Shown: in pieces, positions 34,557 through 43,621 of the stretch
Layout of the letters: every line of letters starts with the position of its first letter
Position numbering within the stretch: the stretch's first letter is position 1
Source: Actinomyces polynesiensis
GTDB taxonomy: Bacteria > Actinomycetota > Actinomycetes > Actinomycetales > Actinomycetaceae
NCBI RefSeq assembly: GCF_000820725.1
Contig: NZ_CCXH01000094.1
Coordinates: forward strand, 1 to 64,000
Length of the DNA: 64,000 bases
Direction: 5' to 3'
Notes under the pieces: model-generated
What the model was told of the DNA's origin: nothing
Database searches by the model: none
Seen by the model: the letters and a program-made list of their open reading frames with translations, nothing else
Translations under genes and position numbers: made by a program

Positions 34557-35905
34557 TCACACCGCATCGGGGCCCGGACCCGGGTCCTCGGGGGGCGTGA
34601 GCGGAGAGGTGGCCGCGGGCGCATCGGTGGGTGCTCCACCCGTGCCGAACATCTCCACCAGTTCCTTCTCGGCGTTGACCACCGCGGCGAGACGGCGGAC
34701 GCCCTCGCGGATCTCCGCGGGGGAGGGGTAGCAGAAGGACAGGCGCATGTGGTCGGCACCGCGACCGTCGTAGTAGAACGCCGTGCCCGAGACGTAGGCG
34801 ACCTGCCCGCGCACGGCTCGGGGGAGCATCGACTTGGCGTCGAGCCCGTCGGGGAGGGTGACCCAGGTGTAGAAACCACCCGCCGGGGTGGTCCAGGAGC
34901 AGTCGGGCATGTACTCCGCCAGTGCACCGAGCATCGCCTCGCAGCGCTCCTGGTACATCGCGCGGAAGTCCTTGACCTGCCCGTACCAGTCGTACTCCGC
35001 CAGGTACCCGCCGATGGCCATCTGGCCGACCATCGAGGGGGAGAGGATCGCGGACTCGGAGGCCAGGACCAGTTTGTCGCGGATGGCGTGGGGTGCGTAG
35101 GCCCATCCGATGCGGAACCCCGGGGCGAACATCTTCGAGAAGGACCCCAGGTAGACGACACCCTCGGGGGAGTAGGACTTCAACGCCGGCAGGGGATCGG
35201 AGTGGAACCCGAGGAGCCCGTACGGGTTGTCCTCGAGGATGAGGATCCCCTCGCGCATGCAGATCTCGGCGATGACGGGACGGCGCTCCTCGGAGAGGGT
35301 CACGCCGGCGGGGTTCTGGAAGTTCGGGATCGTGTAGAGGAGCTTGATGTGGCGGCCCTGCCCGCGCAGCTGCGGATCGTGGTCTCCAGGGCCTCGGGGA
35401 CGAGGCCGTCGTGGTCCATCTCCACGTGGACGACGTCCGCCTGGCGGGCGCGGAAGACACCCAGGGCGCCCACGTACGAGGGCGACTCGGCGAGCACCAC
35501 GTCACCGGGATCCACGAAGAGCTCGGTCATGAGGTCCAGCGCCTGCTGGGAGCCGGTGGTCACCACCACGTCGTCGGGGTCCGCGCCCGCGATCCCGTCG
35601 TAGGACATGACCTCGGTGATGCGCTCGCGCAGGACCTCCCAGCCCTGCCCGGAGCCGTACTGCATGGCCACGGTGCCGTCGCGCAGGATCAGCTGCTTGG
35701 CGGACTCCGCGAGGTCCCTGATGGGCAGGTCCTTGAGGTTGGGCATGCCACCGGCCAGGGAGACGACCTCCGGGCGTGAGACGACGGAGAACAGCGCCCG
35801 GATCTCGGAAGCTCGCAGGTTGTGGGCTCGCTCGGCGTAGGAGCCGAACCATGGATCGAGCCTGTTGCCCTGCGTGCCGCCCGAGGGGCGTGTCATGTCG
35901 CTCAC
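34557..35905 (-). pseudogene. PLP-dependent class I/II aminotransferase with one-base frameshift
   Basis: Encodes a MocR-like/2-aminoadipate-type aminotransferase of about 449 codons split over two frames. GTG 35905 (after GGAGGAAGG) starts the upstream part (YAERAHNLRASEIRALFSVV, VSLAGGMPNLKDLPI, VVTTGSQQALDL). Near 35366-35372 one base is missing after ATCCGCAG; restoring it joins LVPEALETTIR to LRGQGRHIKLLYTIPNFQNP. The downstream part keeps ILEDNPYG and the PLP lysine in LGSFSKMFAPGFRIGWAYAP. As given, the protein is cut before the PLP site. The remainder is fully conserved, so a sequence error or very recent mutation is likely. Confidence 0.8.
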
Positions 35906-36009
35906 GGGACCTTCCTCCGTCGCTGTGGCGCAGCCCGGACGGGCCGCGTCCCCCCAGTGTGCCACCCGACACGGGCGTCCTGCGACGCGCGCTGCCGCAC
36001 CCGGTGACC

Positions 36010-36393
36010 TCAGGTGCGGGGGGTGAGGAGGGCGCGCAGCTCCGCCTTCGGGCGGGCGCCCACCAGCCGGGCGGTCTCACGGCCCCCGGTGCACGCGAGG
36101 TAGCAGGGCACGGCGGTCACGCCGTGGGCGCGGGCCACCTCGGGGTGCTCCCCCACGTCCACGGTGAGGACCAGGGCCCGGCCCGTGAGTTCGCGGGCCA
36201 GCTCCCCCACGACGGGTTCCATCTGCCGGCACGGTGCGCACCAGTCCGCGGTGAAGGCGAGGAGGACGGGCACGGCGGAGGTCAGCACGCGTTCCTCGAG
36301 GTCGCGCGGTTCCTGCAGGCCGCCGGACCCCCGCCGGGCGGCCGGGTCCTGCGGTGGCGGCCCGGGGGGAGGGGTCGGGAGCGGTCGGCTCAC
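36010..36393 (-). CDS. Thioredoxin
   Basis: 127-aa thioredoxin with active site [14 protein letters not shown], cis-Pro loop VTAVPCYLA and an N-terminal Pro-rich extension of about 25 residues. Cytoplasmic thiol-disulfide reductant for ribonucleotide reductase, methionine sulfoxide reductase and others. GTG 36393 overlaps the trxB stop (GTGA), so the reductase and its substrate are made together. The extra Cys after cis-Pro is unusual. Confidence 0.88.
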
Positions 36394-37328
36394 CGGCCCC
36401 GGACGGCCAGCCAGCGCTCCGCGTCGAGTGCCGCGCGGCACCCTGAGCCGGCTGCGGTGATGGCCTGACGGTAGGTGTGGTCGACGGCGTCCCCGCAGGC
36501 GAAGACGCCCTCGAGGTTGGTGCGCGTCGAGGGCTCCTCCACCTTGATGTACCCGGCGGGGTCCAGGTCCACCTGCCCGCGGACGATCTCGGTGCGCGGG
36601 AGGTGCCCGATGGCCACGAACACGCCCTCCACGGGGAGGATGGTCAGGGTCCCGTCGGTGGTGGAGCGCAGCTGCACACCCTCGACGTTCTCCTCACCCA
36701 GCACATCGGCGACCTCAGCGTTCCAGGCGAAGTCGATCTTCGGGTCCGCCTTGGCGCGGTCCACCATGGCCTTGGAGGCGCGCAGGGCGTCGCGCCGGTG
36801 CACGACGGTGACGTTGCGGGCGAACCGGGTGAGGAAGGTGGCCTCCTCCATGGCGGAGTCGCCCCCGCCGATGACGGCGAGGTCCTTGTCACGGAAGAAG
36901 AAGCCGTCACAGGTGGCGCAGTAGCTGACGCCGCGACCCGAGAGGCGTTCCTCACTGTCCAGGCCCAGGTGCCGGTACTCCGAACCGGTGGCCAGGATCA
37001 CGGCCCGGGTCAGGATCTCCTCGTCCTCGACGAGGACGCGCTTGACGTCACCGGTGAGGTCGAGCTCGGTGGCGTCGTCGAAGCGGACCTCGGCCCCGAA
37101 ACGCTCGGCCTGCTCGCGCATGTGCTCCATGAGGTCGGGCCCCATGATGCCCTCGGGGAAGCCGGGGAAGTTCTCCACCTCGGTCGTCGTCATCAGGGCA
37201 CCGCCGGCCGTCACCGACCCTGCCAGGACCACCGGCGCCAGGCCGGCCCGGGCGCAGTAGATGGCCGCCGTGTAGCCGGCGGGGCCCGATCCGACGATGA
37301 CGACGTCGTGCACGGTGGTGTCACTCAT
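36390..37328 (-). CDS. trxB: Thioredoxin-disulfide reductase
   Basis: 312-aa FAD/NADPH flavoenzyme. FAD motif [20 protein letters not shown], redox-active [11 protein letters not shown] (CATC), NADPH motif [15 protein letters not shown] and C-terminal FAD motif [19 protein letters not shown] are all present. The length is normal. It is directly followed, with overlap, by its thioredoxin partner and lies 30 nt after the MurJ fusion gene. Confidence 0.95.
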
Positions 37329-37358
37329 GGAAGGAGGTCTCCTTGTCCGTCGGTGAAC

Positions 37359-40300
37359 TCACTTGAGGGAGAGTTCGTAGATCCACGCCCAGTTCTGGCC
37401 GTCGGGGCCCGTCGGCATCGTCCTGAACGACAGTGACAACGCGGAGAGCTCCGTGGGCTGGGCCAGTTTGATGGTCGTGTTCGGACTCAACGCGGAGGTC
37501 GCCAACTCTGTTCCCGTGCGCGGGTTGGAGGGGTCGGTGACCTCGCGCACCACGAGCTCCCCGCCCGAGGTCTCGGGGGCCATGGTCAGGTCGATCTCGG
37601 AGACCAGGGCCTTCTCCTTGAGGGTGAGGAGGATGGTCACGGTCTGTTCCTCACGGAACTGGTTGAGGTCGTAGGAGCGCGAGTGCCACTGGGTCGTGGG
37701 ATCGCCGTCGATGAGGTTCATGACGGAGTCGGGGTTGTCGCCGCCGTCGTCACGCCAGGAGAAGATGGTCGGCGTGGCGATCTGCGGGGCCGCGACCGGG
37801 GTCTCCGACTCCGAGGGCTCGGGGCTCTGGCCGGACTGCTCCCCGCTCTGGGACCCGGACTGCTCGCCGGACTGTCCCGACAGGTTCGGGATGTCGAGGT
37901 CGCTGCCGATGGGCGTCAGTGCGGTGCGCACCCCCCAGAAGCCACCGCCCAGGACCAGGACCAGGGCGAAGACGAGGGCGGGGACCGTCGGGTCGAGGCG
38001 GCCACGCGAGCCGCTCCTGCGTGCGGGACCACTGCCGCTGGGGCCGTCGCCCCGCGGTGCCGCGCCCGACGCGGAGGAGGGCGGCTGGGGGGGTCGGCCA
38101 CCCCCGGCACCGGAGCCTGTGACGGGGGTGGGCGCGAGGACCTCGGTACGTGTGGAGGTGTCGTCGCCCGGTGTGGCCGCCGGTGGTGTGGCGGGGATCC
38201 GGTGGGGGCCGGGGGCCGCTCCGAGGACGGTGGTGGACTCCTCGTCCCCCGTGAGGACGGGGGACCCGCCCTCCGTGGGGATGTGCCCGTCGTCGCCCGG
38301 GTGGGACGGGACGTCCTCCGGGGTGGGCGCCACCTCGTCGGGGGGCACCGCGCCGTCGGGCAGGCCGCCCGTGGACGTGGCAGGGGAGTCGGTCGGTGCG
38401 CCGTCAGCCGGGGTCCCGGCCGGGGACGCTGTCGGGGTGTCCGGGCCGGGCAGCGGGGGAGTGGTGTCCCCCGGCCCGTCGCCGGTCGGTACCTGCGTCA
38501 AGGGGACCGGGCCCGCGTCGGGCCGGGTGGGCTCGGCGGAGGTGGGGGTGGCCGAGTTGCGGAGCGCCTGACGGGTCCTGCCCAGCCAACTCGAGAAGGA
38601 CCGGCCCGCCGTGGCCGCCAGTGTGGTGCCGGCGGCGAGCATGCCCGCGCCCGCCGGCGCCCCGGGTGCACCCGGCTCCGTGGACACCGGTTGCGTGGGA
38701 ATGGCTGCCGAGGGGGGTGCCGGGAGGTCGGCGGGGAGCTCCTCGCCCCTCCGGCCCGTGTCCTCCGGCGCAACCCCGTCAGTGTCCGAGTCCGGTGCGG
38801 CGGGGGTCGCGGACGGGTGGTCCCGCTCCGCGGGGGTACCGGGGAGGCCACTGCGGTCCTCGCCGTCGGGGGACGACGGGACGGGCCCTGCCTCCGTGTC
38901 GGCGAAGGTCGAGGGGTCGAAGGGGATTCCCGGGGGCGGGGGCGCGGGGAGCACGTCGGCGCCGTCGGTCCCGTCGGCGGTTCCCGTCACGTCGTCGTCG
39001 GGAGGTGTCCCCCCGGCCGGCGCCCACTCCGGCGACGGGCCCACCGTGTGCGGACGGGCGTCCGCATCGGCGGTCGGTGTCGCTGCGGTGGACGTGGGCG
39101 TTCCCCCCTGCGGTGACGGCGGTGCGGGCGGCTCGGTGCCCGCCCGGTCATGCCTCACGTCCGGGTCCTCGGCCGCCTCGTGCTCGGGCGCCGTGTCCTG
39201 GGCCGGGGGAGGCGTGGTCGCCCCCGTGGGGCGCAGGATCTCGTCGAAGGACGGCAGGTCGGTGCCCTGGGGGCTTCCGGCCCGGCGGACGGAGAAGCGG
39301 GGGACCACGGGGAACTCGCCGGTGTTGGTCGGGTCGCTCGCCGACCAGGCCGTGCCGACGGACGACCAGGTCAGCGCGTCCTCGTCGGGGGTCGGGGCCG
39401 TCCCAAAGGGACCTGTCCCGCTGTCGGCACCGGCATCGCCGTCAGCACCGGTGTCGCGCTCGTGCCCGGCACCGTCCTGGTCCCGTTCCATTGCGTCCTC
39501 CGTGGCTCGCCCGTCCTGTGTCAACCCATTATCACCGTCCGCGCCCCCGGATCGCCCCACCATGACGCGGCGCAGCGTGGCGGGCAGGGGGAGGCGGCGG
39601 GCGAGGGAGGGCAGGACCTGGCCCGAGTCCTCGGGATCGATGAGCCGGAGCACGAGTGCGTAGACGGCTGTGACCACCACGGCCACCACCAGGAGCTTGC
39701 AGCCGGCCATGAGGTAGCGCACGAGTCGCGACCCCGGGTCGGAGACGGGACCGAGCAGCGAGATGACCCCCAGGCCGACCAGGAACCCCGCCACGGCGGC
39801 GATGAGGAACTTGAGGTACGAGGCGATGATGCGGCCCGGATTGACCTCACGGACCACCCGCGCCACCCAGAAGACCGCGATGAAGCCCTGCAGGAGACGG
39901 CACGCCGTCTCCCCCAGCGCCGCGCCCGCGGTCCACCACTGGGGTCCGGCCAGCGCGAAGACCGACCACCCGACGGCCACCTGGAGCAGGGTCGGCACGA
40001 TGCCCATGAGGAACACGGGGCGTGCGTCCTCCAGGGCGAAGAACACCCGCTGGCTCATGAGGACCATGCCCGTGGAGGCGACCCCGGGCATCAGGGCGAG
40101 GAGGACCCAGGAGTACGCCTGGGCCACCTCCGGCGTCGTGCGCGGCGGCAGGGCCAGTTGCATCATCGGGACGGCGCCGGCCATGAGGATCGCCGCGGCG
40201 AGCAGGGAGAGCAGCGTGATGAGACGGACGCCCTGGTGGTAGTTCGCGGCCACCGTCTCCCCGTCGTGGTCGGCAGCGGCGTCCGCGAGGCGGGTGAAGA

Positions 40301-41366
40301 TGGCCGTGGCCAGTGACACCGAGATCAGCGACTGCGGGACCATGTAGATCATGAACGCCGTCGTGTAGGAGGCGATGCCCGCCATGATGAGGTTCGTGCC
40401 GGCGGCGTGGGTGTCGACCTGCGTCGCCAGGTTGGAGGTCGAGAGGATTCCGATCTGGCTGATGCCGAGCGTCGCGAACGTCCACCCGGCCACCTTCGAG
40501 GCGGACCCGAAGGACGTGCCCCGGAAGTGGAAGTCCGGACGCAGCTTCACACCCGCCCTGCGCATGGGGAGGATCAGCACGAGAGCCTGGAACACGACGC
40601 CGATGGTGGCGGAGCCCGCCAGAACCCAGAACTGGGCGGAGGTGAAGTCCTCCACGCGGAAGATCCCGTCGTCGGGCGCGGCGCCCCACAGGAGGAGGAA
40701 TGCGACGAGGCCGGCGATGCCCACGACGTTGTTGACCACCGGTGCCCACATGTAGGGGCCGAAGATCCCCCGGGCGTTGAGGAGTTCCCCGAGCAGGTTG
40801 TAGAGCCCGTAGAAGAAGATCTGGGGCAGGCACAGCAGGGTGAAGGCGATGCTCAGAGAGCGCAACTCACCCGTGTACCCCTTGGCGAAGAGGGTCACCA
40901 GCAAGGGGGAGAGGACCATCGCGATGAGGGTCACGCCGAAGAGGATGGTGCCCGCCAGCGTCAGGAGGCGGTTGACGTAGACACTCCCCGACCGTGACTT
41001 GAGGGCGCGCACGATCTGTGGGACCAGGACCGCGTCGAAGACTCCCGCCGCCAGGAGGTTGTAGACGGTGTTGGGGAGGTTGTTGGCGACCCCGAATGCG
41101 GCCGAGACGCTGCCCGCACCCGTGCCGATGCACGCCAGGAGGAGGAAGTTGCGGAGGAACCCGAGCACGCGGGAGACCATCGTGCCCGAGGCCATGACCA
41201 TCGAGGAGCGCAGCAGGGAGGTCTTCTGCGGCGCGCCGACCACCGCGAGGTCCTCGTCGCCGAGTGGTTCCGCGGGCGATCCGGGGACCAGCGGGAATGC
41301 CGGGACCTCCGGCGCCCCGTCGGCGTCGGGCGGTGGGGGCGCCGGAACCGCGTGGTCGTCACTCAT
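37359..41366 (-). CDS. murJ: MurJ (MviN) lipid II flippase fused to long linker and extracellular beta domain
   Basis: 1335-aa protein. Residues about 50-577 are a MurJ flippase of the MOP superfamily with about 14 membrane helices (MASGTMVSRVLGFLRNFLLL, NLPNTVYNLLAAGVFDAVLV, LLGELLNARGIFGPYMWAPV). Residues about 580-1125 are Pro/Thr/Asp/Gly-rich and disordered. A membrane helix follows (about 1127-1149), then a Gln/Ser/Glu spacer and a C-terminal domain (about 1197-1335, ATPTIFSWRDDGGDN, DGDPTTQWHSRSYD) with discoidin-like features. Mycobacterial Rv3910 has the same ends but a pseudokinase in between; I see none here. It is coupled (ATGA) to the DUF6049 gene. Confidence 0.88.
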   Translation of the reverse strand: MSDDHAVPAPPPPDADGAPEVPAFPLVPGSPAEPLGDEDLAVVGAPQKTSLLRSSMVMASGTMVSRVLGFLRNFLLLACIGTGAGSVSAAFGVANNLPNTVYNLLAAGVFDAVLVPQIVRALKSRSGSVYVNRLLTLAGTILFGVTLIAMVLSPLLVTLFAKGYTGELRSLSIAFTLLCLPQIFFYGLYNLLGELLNARGIFGPYMWAPVVNNVVGIAGLVAFLLLWGAAPDDGIFRVEDFTSAQFWVLAGSATIGVVFQALVLILPMRRAGVKLRPDFHFRGTSFGSASKVAGWTFATLGISQIGILSTSNLATQVDTHAAGTNLIMAGIASYTTAFMIYMVPQSLISVSLATAIFTRLADAAADHDGETVAANYHQGVRLITLLSLLAAAILMAGAVPMMQLALPPRTTPEVAQAYSWVLLALMPGVASTGMVLMSQRVFFALEDARPVFLMGIVPTLLQVAVGWSVFALAGPQWWTAGAALGETACRLLQGFIAVFWVARVVREVNPGRIIASYLKFLIAAVAGFLVGLGVISLLGPVSDPGSRLVRYLMAGCKLLVVAVVVTAVYALVLRLIDPEDSGQVLPSLARRLPLPATLRRVMVGRSGGADGDNGLTQDGRATEDAMERDQDGAGHERDTGADGDAGADSGTGPFGTAPTPDEDALTWSSVGTAWSASDPTNTGEFPVVPRFSVRRAGSPQGTDLPSFDEILRPTGATTPPPAQDTAPEHEAAEDPDVRHDRAGTEPPAPPSPQGGTPTSTAATPTADADARPHTVGPSPEWAPAGGTPPDDDVTGTADGTDGADVLPAPPPPGIPFDPSTFADTEAGPVPSSPDGEDRSGLPGTPAERDHPSATPAAPDSDTDGVAPEDTGRRGEELPADLPAPPSAAIPTQPVSTEPGAPGAPAGAGMLAAGTTLAATAGRSFSSWLGRTRQALRNSATPTSAEPTRPDAGPVPLTQVPTGDGPGDTTPPLPGPDTPTASPAGTPADGAPTDSPATSTGGLPDGAVPPDEVAPTPEDVPSHPGDDGHIPTEGGSPVLTGDEESTTVLGAAPGPHRIPATPPAATPGDDTSTRTEVLAPTPVTGSGAGGGRPPQPPSSASGAAPRGDGPSGSGPARRSGSRGRLDPTVPALVFALVLVLGGGFWGVRTALTPIGSDLDIPNLSGQSGEQSGSQSGEQSGQSPEPSESETPVAAPQIATPTIFSWRDDGGDNPDSVMNLIDGDPTTQWHSRSYDLNQFREEQTVTILLTLKEKALVSEIDLTMAPETSGGELVVREVTDPSNPRTGTELATSALSPNTTIKLAQPTELSALSLSFRTMPTGPDGQNWAWIYELSLK

Positions 41367-43621
41367 CGTTCCTCCTCGGATGCCGGACGGTCCCGAAGTC
41401 TACGGCGCACCGTGCGCGCCACACCTGCGACGAGCATCACCACGAGCGCCCCGGCGACCACGGCGGTGCCCATGTCCTCCCACTCGGCGCGCATGCGCAC
41501 CGTGACGGACTGGGCGTCGTCGAGGACCTGGCCCCCCGGAGTCGTCACGAGGTAGCCGACCGTGATGTCGCCCGACCCGATGGCGGAGACCGGGACGTCC
41601 ACGGAGGCGGTGCTCCGCGCCGGGATGGTGGTGGTCTGGGGACTGGTGACGCTCAGGCGGGGGTCGGAGGGCTCCAGGGTGACGACCACCGTGACGTCCC
41701 AGGGGAGGTCGTTGGTGACCCGGACCGGGAAGTTGGCGGACTTGTTGATGAGGTTGACCGTGGCGGAGGGCTCCGCGCGCACGGCGGTGAGCAGGGAGTG
41801 GACGAGCTGCTCGAAATCGGAGAGCCGCTCACTGCGCTCCTCGGTCGTGCCCGTCGCCGAGAGCGTCTCCAGGGCCGCGTCCTCCAGGCGGTCCTGGAGG
41901 TCGCGCGGCTGCGGGATCGCCTCCGCCAGGGAGGCGGTGCTGGACAGGGCGTCGGAGATCGAGGTGAAGACCCGGGAGGTGAGGTCGTCGAGGGCAGGCG
42001 CCTCGGCCACGGTCTGGCGCTGGAGGTCCGTCGGATCGGAGTCCACGACGTCGGTGAAGGACAGCGGCGCCACCCAGCGCTGGTCGAGGAGGGCGGTGAG
42101 GCGGGAGGTGAGGGAGGAGTCGAATGTGGTTCCCCGGGAGACGGGGACGAAGAGCGTGCGCGACTGGTTGGGCAGCTCACGGGTGATGACCGCGGACAGG
42201 GCGGTGAGGACCTGCTCGGTGTCGAGCTCGTCCGCCGCGCTCGTCGGCTCCCAGCTGAGCAGCTCGGCCAGTGCGGTCCGGGAGGTCAGGACGGACACGG
42301 TGGCGTCCGTGGCCCCCTGGGTGGAGGACTTCCCCGTCGTGGGGTCCACCTCGACCCGCGCCACGGAGGTGAAGGAGATCTCGTCGGTGGGTTCCAGCGA
42401 TCCGGGTGGTGCGATGAAGGTCTCGCCGGGGAAGGCCTGGAGGGCCTGGCGTCCGAAGGTCCGCGTGGTCGGCCAGACGACGTCGCGCACCACCGTCGCA
42501 GTGCCCTGGTCGAGGGAGGAGTCGCGGGACTTCGAGGCCAGGTCGAGGAGGCTCTGCGAACCGCCCATCGCCAGTGCCGCGAGGTCCGCGTCCCAGCTCG
42601 GCAGCGCCACCACCTCGTCAGCCGTGTCCAGGAGGGTGCGCGTGAAGGACGTCGTGGTGCCGTCCCCGCTCTGGCCGGAGGTGGGCGACCCTGCGTCCGA
42701 GGTGGGCGACCCTGCGTCCGAGGTGGTGCCGCTGGGGGTGGGGGAGGCGGTCGTGGTCGGGGAGCCCGTCGCCCCCGGGGTCGTGGTGCCGGTGGGTGTG
42801 GGGGTCGCCGAGGGCGAGGAGGAGGGTGCGGACGGGGGCACACCTGACTGGGCCCCGTCCACGGAGTCCGGGTCCTCCGTGCCCGTCAGCACCTCGGGGT
42901 CGATCGCCAGGGTGACCCCGGGGGTCGCGGCGAGGTCGAGGGCGGTCGCGCCCTCGGCGCTGGGATCGGTGCCCGAGGCGCTCGTCCAGGGCACCAGGGT
43001 GCCGATGCCGGTCGACGCGACCTCGTACCCGGAGTCCCACACGAGCACCGTGCGGTCCCGACCGCTGGCGTCCCCCACGCTCGCGTCGACACTGAGCCCG
43101 CGGGGGCCCCAACCGAAGGAGCTGCCCAGGGGGAGGTCGGAGGTGGCGACGGTGACGGCGAACGCCGCGGACTGCCCGGCCGCGAGGGGGCGGTCGAGGG
43201 TGGTCGTGGCGACGAGGGCGCCCGAGGGCTGTGTCCCGGAGAGGAAGCCGGTGAGTTGCTCCTGGCTGAGGGGGGTGACCGACTGCAGGTGCACCTCGAT
43301 GTGGATCCCCCCCTCGAGGGTCCCCTCAGTCGTGTTGGTGATGGTGCCGGAGACGACCACGTGGTCCTGGGTGGTGAGCACACGCGGGGAGAGGTCCTCG
43401 ATCGCGACGTCGAGGCCCGAGCTGTCCGAGCCCGCCTCGGTCCCCAGCACCGCGGGGCGGGTGTCGGTGGTGGAGGCGTCGTCGGCGAGGGCCGGGGACA
43501 CCGGTGCCAGCACGGTGGCGGTGGGGACCAGTGCACAGGCCGCGAGCAGGGCGAGGAGGACCCTGCGGGCGCGGCGGGTGGGTCCGGGGCACCGCCGTGG
43601 GGCCGGGTGTCGCGCCCCCAT
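41363..43621 (-). CDS. DUF6049 family secreted, membrane-anchored protein
   Basis: 752-aa protein with a signal peptide (RRVLLALLAACALVPTATVL, about 20-46), a long extracytoplasmic part with an early beta module (VVVSGTITNTTEGTLEGGIH), a Ser/Thr/Pro-rich low-complexity stretch (about 260-330), and a C-terminal membrane helix (VVAGALVVMLVAGVARTV) with a basic tail. By position (NUDIX - this - MurJ) and topology it corresponds to Mycobacterium Rv3909. A role in the cell envelope together with MurJ is inferred; no catalytic motif is visible. ATG 43621 overlaps the NUDIX stop by one base. Confidence 0.82.
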   Translation of the reverse strand: MGARHPAPRRCPGPTRRARRVLLALLAACALVPTATVLAPVSPALADDASTTDTRPAVLGTEAGSDSSGLDVAIEDLSPRVLTTQDHVVVSGTITNTTEGTLEGGIHIEVHLQSVTPLSQEQLTGFLSGTQPSGALVATTTLDRPLAAGQSAAFAVTVATSDLPLGSSFGWGPRGLSVDASVGDASGRDRTVLVWDSGYEVASTGIGTLVPWTSASGTDPSAEGATALDLAATPGVTLAIDPEVLTGTEDPDSVDGAQSGVPPSAPSSSPSATPTPTGTTTPGATGSPTTTASPTPSGTTSDAGSPTSDAGSPTSGQSGDGTTTSFTRTLLDTADEVVALPSWDADLAALAMGGSQSLLDLASKSRDSSLDQGTATVVRDVVWPTTRTFGRQALQAFPGETFIAPPGSLEPTDEISFTSVARVEVDPTTGKSSTQGATDATVSVLTSRTALAELLSWEPTSAADELDTEQVLTALSAVITRELPNQSRTLFVPVSRGTTFDSSLTSRLTALLDQRWVAPLSFTDVVDSDPTDLQRQTVAEAPALDDLTSRVFTSISDALSSTASLAEAIPQPRDLQDRLEDAALETLSATGTTEERSERLSDFEQLVHSLLTAVRAEPSATVNLINKSANFPVRVTNDLPWDVTVVVTLEPSDPRLSVTSPQTTTIPARSTASVDVPVSAIGSGDITVGYLVTTPGGQVLDDAQSVTVRMRAEWEDMGTAVVAGALVVMLVAGVARTVRRRLRDRPASEEER
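42681..42722. repeat. Two 21-bp tandem repeats in the DUF6049 gene
   Basis: GTGGGCGACCCTGCGTCCGAG occurs twice in tandem (42681-42701, 42702-42722), encoding a doubled SDAGSPT segment in the disordered linker. It is in frame and probably length-variable between strains. Confidence 0.8.

Follow-up and report, generated by a model that had tools for sequence, protein, structure and literature searches.

The stretch of Actinomyces polynesiensis DNA analysed here (64,000 nucleotides of contig NZ_CCXH01000094.1, hereafter the window) carries at 37359-41366, on the minus strand, an open reading frame (ORF) that starts with ATG and encodes a fused protein of 1335 amino acids. The N-terminal part of this protein is the lipid II flippase MurJ, and the fused ORF accounts for the only PF03023 match of the genome. 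MurJ is followed, in this order, by a disordered linker of ~540 residues, a transmembrane (TM) helix and a domain resembling family 32 carbohydrate-binding modules (CBM32) and discoidin domains. An initial annotation of this DNA, made from the sequence letters, had recognised both ends of mycobacterial MviN (Rv3910) without the pseudokinase that lies between them in mycobacteria, and had suggested a different way of coupling lipid II flipping to regulation. We describe here this architecture, its distribution among relatives and a set of putative start signals conserved inside the reading frame, at the junction between MurJ and linker. Relatives are referred to by groups: g1 corresponds to Schaalia and includes the window genome, g17 to Gleimia, and g30 to a separate related group.

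Domain architecture and absence of the pseudokinase

The MurJ domain covers residues 47-586 (39609..41228; this and all other features of the window given below lie on the minus strand), as supported by PF03023 and a further sequence profile. PF03023 matched residues 83-533 with 212.1 bits (cut-off 27.4), over positions 6-431 of the 451 in the profile, and the MurJ equivalog TIGR01695 reached 217.3 bits, which is under the NCBI curated cut-off of 235.55. Besides MurJ, the Pfam scan of the fused protein gave no match at E<=1. The cytosolic low-complexity linker occupies residues 587-1126 (37989..39608), with 17.6% Pro, 13.5% Ala, 13.5% Gly, 12.0% Thr and 9.8% Asp. The single TM helix was placed at residues 1127-1150 (37917..37988) from a helix of the AlphaFold2 model of the tail (model residues 572-595) and a hydropathy peak.

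The outer domain (residues 1193-1335; 37362..37790), which had been noted at the outset as a retained extracellular beta domain, is predicted to adopt the beta-sandwich jelly-roll fold of CBM32 and F5_8 type C (discoidin) domains. The AlphaFold2 model, with a mean predicted local distance difference test score (pLDDT) of 95.8, supports this assignment. The best Foldseek match was 2jda, a CBM (1.7e-8), and VIA gave nine rows, comprising CBM32s and fucosidase C-terminal domains, with Z 14-15 and a root-mean-square deviation of 2.1-4.1 over 115-128 residues. A sequence profile of the domain independently reached 2v72, the CBM32 of NanJ (E 1e-5). The likeness is one of fold; identity in the nine rows is 14-19% and Pfam F5_F8_type_C (PF00754) is not reached by the window protein (no match at E<=1); two of six relatives gave E 0.058 and 0.13. 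The domain may bind a wall glycan or a precursor.

The middle of the fusion had been described as about 545 residues devoid of kinase motifs, and a clade-specific profile, hhalign and AlphaFold2 all bear this out. The Pfam Pkinase profile misses plain pseudokinases (two of six pseudokinase-bearing relatives gave a match, at E 0.005 and 0.037, under the cut-off), so that a negative Pfam result is weak evidence and a clade-specific profile was grown instead. A first profile, grown from one fused relative and spanning 183 positions, matched 15 of the 22 proteins that came from other genera of the family and, at E<=10, none of the Schaalia, g30 or Gleimia proteins. A second, named A2, is an alignment of 14 pseudokinase domains from the family; it recovers the structures of the Mycobacterium tuberculosis MviN pseudokinase (3OTV, 3OUK, 3UQC, 3OUN) at E 7e-15, together with true kinases that reach 1e-19. 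Aligned with hhalign against A2, the Schaalia tail alignment gave a probability of 0.06%. In the AlphaFold2 model of the tail, 528 of the 780 residues have a pLDDT below 50; the model shows structure only in the TM helix, the C-terminal beta domain, the helices next to the membrane and a single turn of four residues. Linker length agrees: among the 38 pseudokinase-less fused copies of Schaalia and g30 (X removed), linkers measure 131-744 residues (median 266), that of the window (541 residues) being the third longest, and the shortest (131-187) leave no room for a pseudokinase domain of 183 positions. A diverged kinase in the linker was consequently rejected.

The absence of the pseudokinase is the normal state of the clade and is not peculiar to the window genome. 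Among 213 genomes of the family searched with A2, 133 gave a clear pseudokinase match and 80 none, the best matches in these 80 being at the level of ordinary kinases; the threshold of E<=1e-25 was set once the table had been seen, at a visible gap: the weakest match that was counted has 7.4e-28 and the strongest that was not has 1.1e-22. No match at pseudokinase level was obtained with A2 in any of the 35 Schaalia, 6 g30 and 11 Gleimia genomes. The 80 also include genera with diverged forms (g34, g25), other genera and some incomplete or broken genomes. The outer domain is present in 207 of the 213 genomes (132/133 with a clear pseudokinase and 75/80 without, as counted by hand together with the pseudokinase tallies) and is the stable part of the system across the family. 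The MurJ tree unites Schaalia, g30 and Gleimia in one clade (Shimodaira-Hasegawa-like approximate likelihood ratio support of 100), in which an outer domain without pseudokinase is the rule, as the survey of MurJ architectures proposed at the outset revealed. Presence and absence of the pseudokinase require at least three changes on this tree, with g34 and g25 labelled by hand as having it.

Four arrangements were distinguished. The kinase-bearing fusion occurs for example in Actinomyces oris and Georgenia. In Brevibacterium and part of Cellulomonas, a separate gene downstream of murJ encodes TM helix and outer domain as in the window but, unlike it, contains the pseudokinase. Fusions without kinase were found in Schaalia, g30, two of three g35 and Mobiluncus porci (74-residue linker), and separate genes without kinase in most Gleimia, g20, the other g24 and one g35. 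Gleimia shares the kinase-less order of linker, TM helix and outer domain downstream of murJ, but of its 11 loci seven have it as an ORF of its own and only L058 is fused; L059 and L060 have no detectable domain and one locus is cut by a contig end. In addition, L091 (4661-7378 and 7102-10176; genome G010, also L164) contains a tandem second murJ-outer-domain copy in which the start of MurJ is absent, and L083 (8241-14837; G014) has an exceptionally long linker in which one stretch is duplicated and runs of N occur; this is probably an artefact of scaffolding.

Putative start signals at the MurJ-linker junction

Schaalia linkers carry a methionine at a nearly constant place, ~40 residues past MurJ in most of them, and the residues that precede it vary and spell a Shine-Dalgarno sequence. 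In the window, a -10-like hexamer GATAAT (39528..39533), conserved in Schaalia junctions, stands inside the ORF 36 nucleotides before an internal ATG, and a Shine-Dalgarno GGAGG (39497..39501) has a calculated duplex energy of -9.5, compared with -11.6 for the murJ start, -8.3 for trxB and -4.3 for a NUDIX gene. From this ATG (39491, M626) to the stop, the signals delimit a predicted nested in-frame gene (37359..39491) that would encode a protein of 710 residues composed of linker, TM helix and outer domain.

We examined the combination of ATAAT with an ATG of strong Shine-Dalgarno energy (<=-7) in 33 Schaalia ORFs, L013 (contig end) and L044 (split) being omitted. The pair is present in 26 of them, [ACG]ATAAT lying 30-49 nucleotides before the ATG (34 in 16 of the 26); when synonymous codons were resampled by the usage of each gene, 200 runs gave 0.23 such ORFs on average and 2 at most. 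It persists in 12 of 17 cluster representatives with less than 90% MurJ identity (19 clusters minus L044 and L088; null 0.18, maximum 2 in 1000), and of the 874 ATGs at other places in these genes none is paired. ATAAT as such occurs in 27/33 junctions, i.e. 3.27 per kb, against 0.084 per kb elsewhere in these genes. Eight of the 26 ORFs, that of the window included, divide the hexamer into codons as xAT|AAT and the other eighteen as ATA|ATG, and the reading phase changed three times on the tree. Since it stands in two reading frames, its conservation cannot lie in the protein, and the hexamer is a nucleic-acid signal. The signals are kept across species with 56-87% MurJ identity to the window. 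Synonymous codon identity within a clade of eight is 0.84-0.96 in codon windows starting at +24 to +42, compared with a mean of 0.69 (standard deviation 0.11) over 986 windows.

Comparable signals precede the pseudokinase in part of the fusions that have it. Among 29 fused kinase genes (duplicates L179 and L184 excluded), TANNNT stands before the kinase in 22 (null 4.2, maximum 12), and TANNNT followed by a start with strong Shine-Dalgarno in 11 (null 0.23, maximum 2 of 500), namely at L062, L068, L074, L077, L121, L177, L182, L183, L198, L205 and L220. Promoters of M. tuberculosis have been reported to have a TANNNT -10 element and no conserved -35, and 26% of its coding sequences to have an internal transcription start site (PMC3898074). 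Rfam gave no RNA element at E<=0.1 over 37000-41600, and an RNA element at the junction was therefore rejected.

In two Schaalia loci, L044 and L088 (genomes G003 and G004, both of 100% completeness), the gene is naturally split. In both, murJ ends in TGA just past the hexamer and the outer-domain ORF is intact, in a different frame from murJ. Its ATG lies 31 nucleotides (L044) and 28 nucleotides (L088) past the last murJ sense codon, with Shine-Dalgarno energies of -8.4 and -8.6. A two-gene state of this kind could have given rise to both phases of the fused genes, through a single small shift of frame on either side of the hexamer.

With its conserved junction signals and two split Schaalia copies, the locus looks like two genes run together. 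We propose, with a probability of about 0.7, that murJ has been joined in frame with the next gene and that this second gene keeps its own start signals, so that two products would be expected. The gene joined to Schaalia murJ would encode a membrane-anchored protein whose disordered linker lies in the cytosol and whose CBM32-like domain lies outside, with one TM helix between them. In Actinomyces, Georgenia or Mycobacterium a pseudokinase stands before the linker; in the clade of Schaalia, g30 and Gleimia it would have been lost. Having retained a -10-like hexamer, a Shine-Dalgarno and an ATG inside the fused ORF, the locus should give both a full-length MurJ-linker-TM-domain protein and a free linker-TM-domain protein of 710 residues. 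The internal start may thus be used in Schaalia, and the outer half probably exists also, or mainly, as a membrane protein of its own.

Several observations weigh against this proposal. The pair is missing from all six g30 ORFs and from seven of the 33 Schaalia ORFs, the split copy L088 among them; the nested start is therefore not shared by all, and in some species the fusion may be the only product. Under fixed amino acids, an ATG with strong Shine-Dalgarno is by itself not rare (27/33 against a null mean of 13.7 and a maximum of 20), and synonymous codons are equally frozen in two more stretches of the gene (windows at -316 and from +333 to +359). No consensus sigma-70 promoter with a -35 box was found in 39400-39800 of the window, although a conserved -35 is also missing from M. 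tuberculosis promoters (PMC3898074). The sequences had already been seen when the Shine-Dalgarno threshold, the hexamers and the regions to be searched were set, and related species are not independent, which the use of representatives lessens but does not remove. Moreover, L044 has an earlier in-frame ATG that overlaps the end of murJ (Shine-Dalgarno -8.5), so that the start of its outer-domain gene is not certain, and the split pair lies within fused relatives on the tree, so that the split may be secondary.

Linker motifs, neighbouring genes and rival explanations

Two linear motifs of the window linker were counted against shuffled sequences: GTAWSASDPTNTGEFPVVPR (residues 671-690; 39297..39356), with a TGxPhiP core within SDPTNTGEFP, and PSFDEIL (residues 705-711; 39234..39254). 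Duplicates of named loci were left out of this test. Of 33 other Schaalia linkers, 24 have P.F[DE][DE][IV] (shuffle mean 0.04, maximum 1); the motif was matched in none of 6 g30 and 8 Gleimia linkers and in 2 of 26 kinase-bearing family linkers. Looser variants were read in g30 (PPQWDDIF, PSWEEIM), and others (PDFDEIL, PDFTEIL) follow the pseudokinase in several relatives; a degenerate DNA pattern for PSFDEIL matches genome G000 in two places, MurJ and one other. TG.[FLMIV]P is present in 6/6 g30 linkers (shuffle mean 0.13, maximum 2); in Schaalia alone this loose form is not significant, with 5/33 other linkers against a shuffle maximum of 5 (mean 0.91), whereas the narrower TG[ED][FM]P is significant (4/33; mean 0.04, maximum 1). 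The Thr of TGxPhiP is a candidate site for phosphorylation and recognition by a forkhead-associated (FHA) domain. PknA-dependent sites have been described as having acidic residues on the N-terminal side and a hydrophobic residue at +3 (PMC7164672), a pattern that TGEF fits only loosely.

Potential partners are encoded in these genomes. FhaA_N was detected in 35/35 Schaalia genomes, and according to Pfam the window genome has in one row a gene with FhaA_N (1.5e-31) and FHA domains, a second FHA gene and a kinase gene, separated by genes that we read from their translations as a PP2C phosphatase, RodA and a penicillin-binding protein. A different contig encodes a Pkinase with three PASTA domains, and all four Pkinase matches of the genome retain VAxK, HRD and DFG. 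Through the motifs SDPTNTGEFP and PSFDEIL, the linker may bind cytosolic members of the PknB/FhaA cell-wall machinery.

Upstream of the fused gene, a DUF6049 gene (41363..43621; PF19516, 2.5e-86) overlaps the murJ start by 4 nucleotides; by position we take it to be Rv3909-like. NUDIX and poly(A)-polymerase genes lie beyond it on the same side. Downstream, after a gap of 30 nucleotides (37328-37359) that holds no sigma-factor gene, follows a thioredoxin-reductase-like gene (36390..37328; PF07992, 2.3e-48), TrxB by position. M. tuberculosis has sigM at that place, between mviN and trxB, and the gene order is that of its Rv3907-Rv3914 region minus sigM. Further on, an aminotransferase-like gene, recognised from its translations, appears to be broken into two overlapping frames (34557-35303 and 35300-35965), by a frameshift or an assembly error.

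Other explanations of the locus have to be weighed against the nested gene. The initial annotation assumed one polypeptide whose linker would take over the job of the pseudokinase, for example through a phosphorylated Thr of SDPTNTGEFP bound by FhaA. The part of this idea that stands is that the ends of MviN are present and the pseudokinase is gone; the assumption of a single polypeptide sits poorly with a junction that carries its own start signals and with the two split Schaalia copies. The presence of TGxPhiP in all g30 and five other Schaalia linkers, the conservation of PxFDEIL and the retention of FhaA throughout Schaalia speak for a takeover by the linker, but 28 of the 33 other Schaalia linkers do not have the TG motif, and we consider this version unlikely. 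A role of the motifs is nevertheless compatible with a nested gene, because these would also be present in the internal product. If the fusion makes the long protein only, the junction signals would be a relic of an older two-gene state. The ORF is indeed continuous in most Schaalia and the pair is missing from the g30 and Schaalia ORFs mentioned above, but a relic would hardly explain conservation at the nucleotide level between such distant MurJ sequences and in two reading phases; the split copies could make the outer domain only separately, and an MviN isoform has been described in Mycobacterium abscessus (PMC4974804). We regard such a relic as improbable.

The promoter-like element could also serve the downstream trxB-trxA genes and not the outer domain, as trxB is on the same strand only 30 nucleotides past the fused gene. 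This is very improbable, since in the window the element lies ~2.2 kb before trxB and, in the 26 ORFs, at a narrow distance before an in-frame ATG with strong Shine-Dalgarno. Finally, diverged pseudokinases do exist in other genera (L078 and L234 of g34, L235 of g25) and one might hide in the linker; with the hhalign probability, the low pLDDT and the shortest linkers reported above, the likelihood of this is close to nil. We therefore keep the nested second gene as the preferred explanation.

Comparison with known systems and regulation of the flippase

Mycobacterial MviN resembles the window fusion in having MurJ first and a TM helix and CBM-like outer domain last, and both FhaA and a PknB-like kinase with PASTA domains are encoded in the window genome. 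The two also agree in transposon screens, where the MurJ half is needed and the C-terminal half dispensable (PMC4974804 for M. tuberculosis, PMC12369343 for S. odontolytica). They differ in that the window fusion has a long disordered linker in place of the pseudokinase, a class named ActPs3 (PMC12599244), and hence no counterpart of the dock formed in M. tuberculosis by pThr947 and FhaA (PMC10166564, PMC12599244). As the pseudokinase is absent while FhaA and PknB remain, regulation of the flippase cannot run through a pseudokinase-FhaA dock here.

A parallel to the nested gene is MviN of M. abscessus (MAB_4937), for which an internal transcription start site and a predicted truncated isoform have been reported (PMC4974804). 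As in Schaalia, the C-terminal product is predicted to start inside the fused gene, but in M. abscessus the C-terminal region has the kinase domain, which is gone in Schaalia. For Schaalia, selection on the start emerges from the comparison of species, and split copies exist. The nested start agrees with the M. abscessus isoform and would be a possible explanation for a puzzle in the 2025 transposon sequencing study of S. odontolytica, where only the MurJ half was without insertions and for which the authors' options include a fusion of an essential and a non-essential protein or a misannotation (PMC12369343).

The distribution of the pseudokinase also bears on its proposed link with the cell wall. 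The family of the 213 genomes is not known to have arabinogalactan. The claim, made in PMC10166564, that the MviN pseudokinase occurs only in organisms bearing arabinogalactan fails against the MviN-type pseudokinase detected in 133 of these 213 genomes.

MurJ is essential, and what is known of its regulation in actinobacteria comes mostly from the pseudokinase-FhaA model of mycobacteria. A large clade that keeps the outer domain, and in Schaalia also FhaA, but not the pseudokinase indicates that this model cannot be general. More broadly, we give an even chance to the view that, as a rule, a regulatory MurJ fusion in Actinomycetales consists of two nested genes, repeatedly joined and separated, of which the second would keep its own promoter and start. 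The pseudokinase would then be an optional insert dropped by whole clades, and the near-universal partner of MurJ in the family would be the tethered outer domain, with short docking motifs in its linker.

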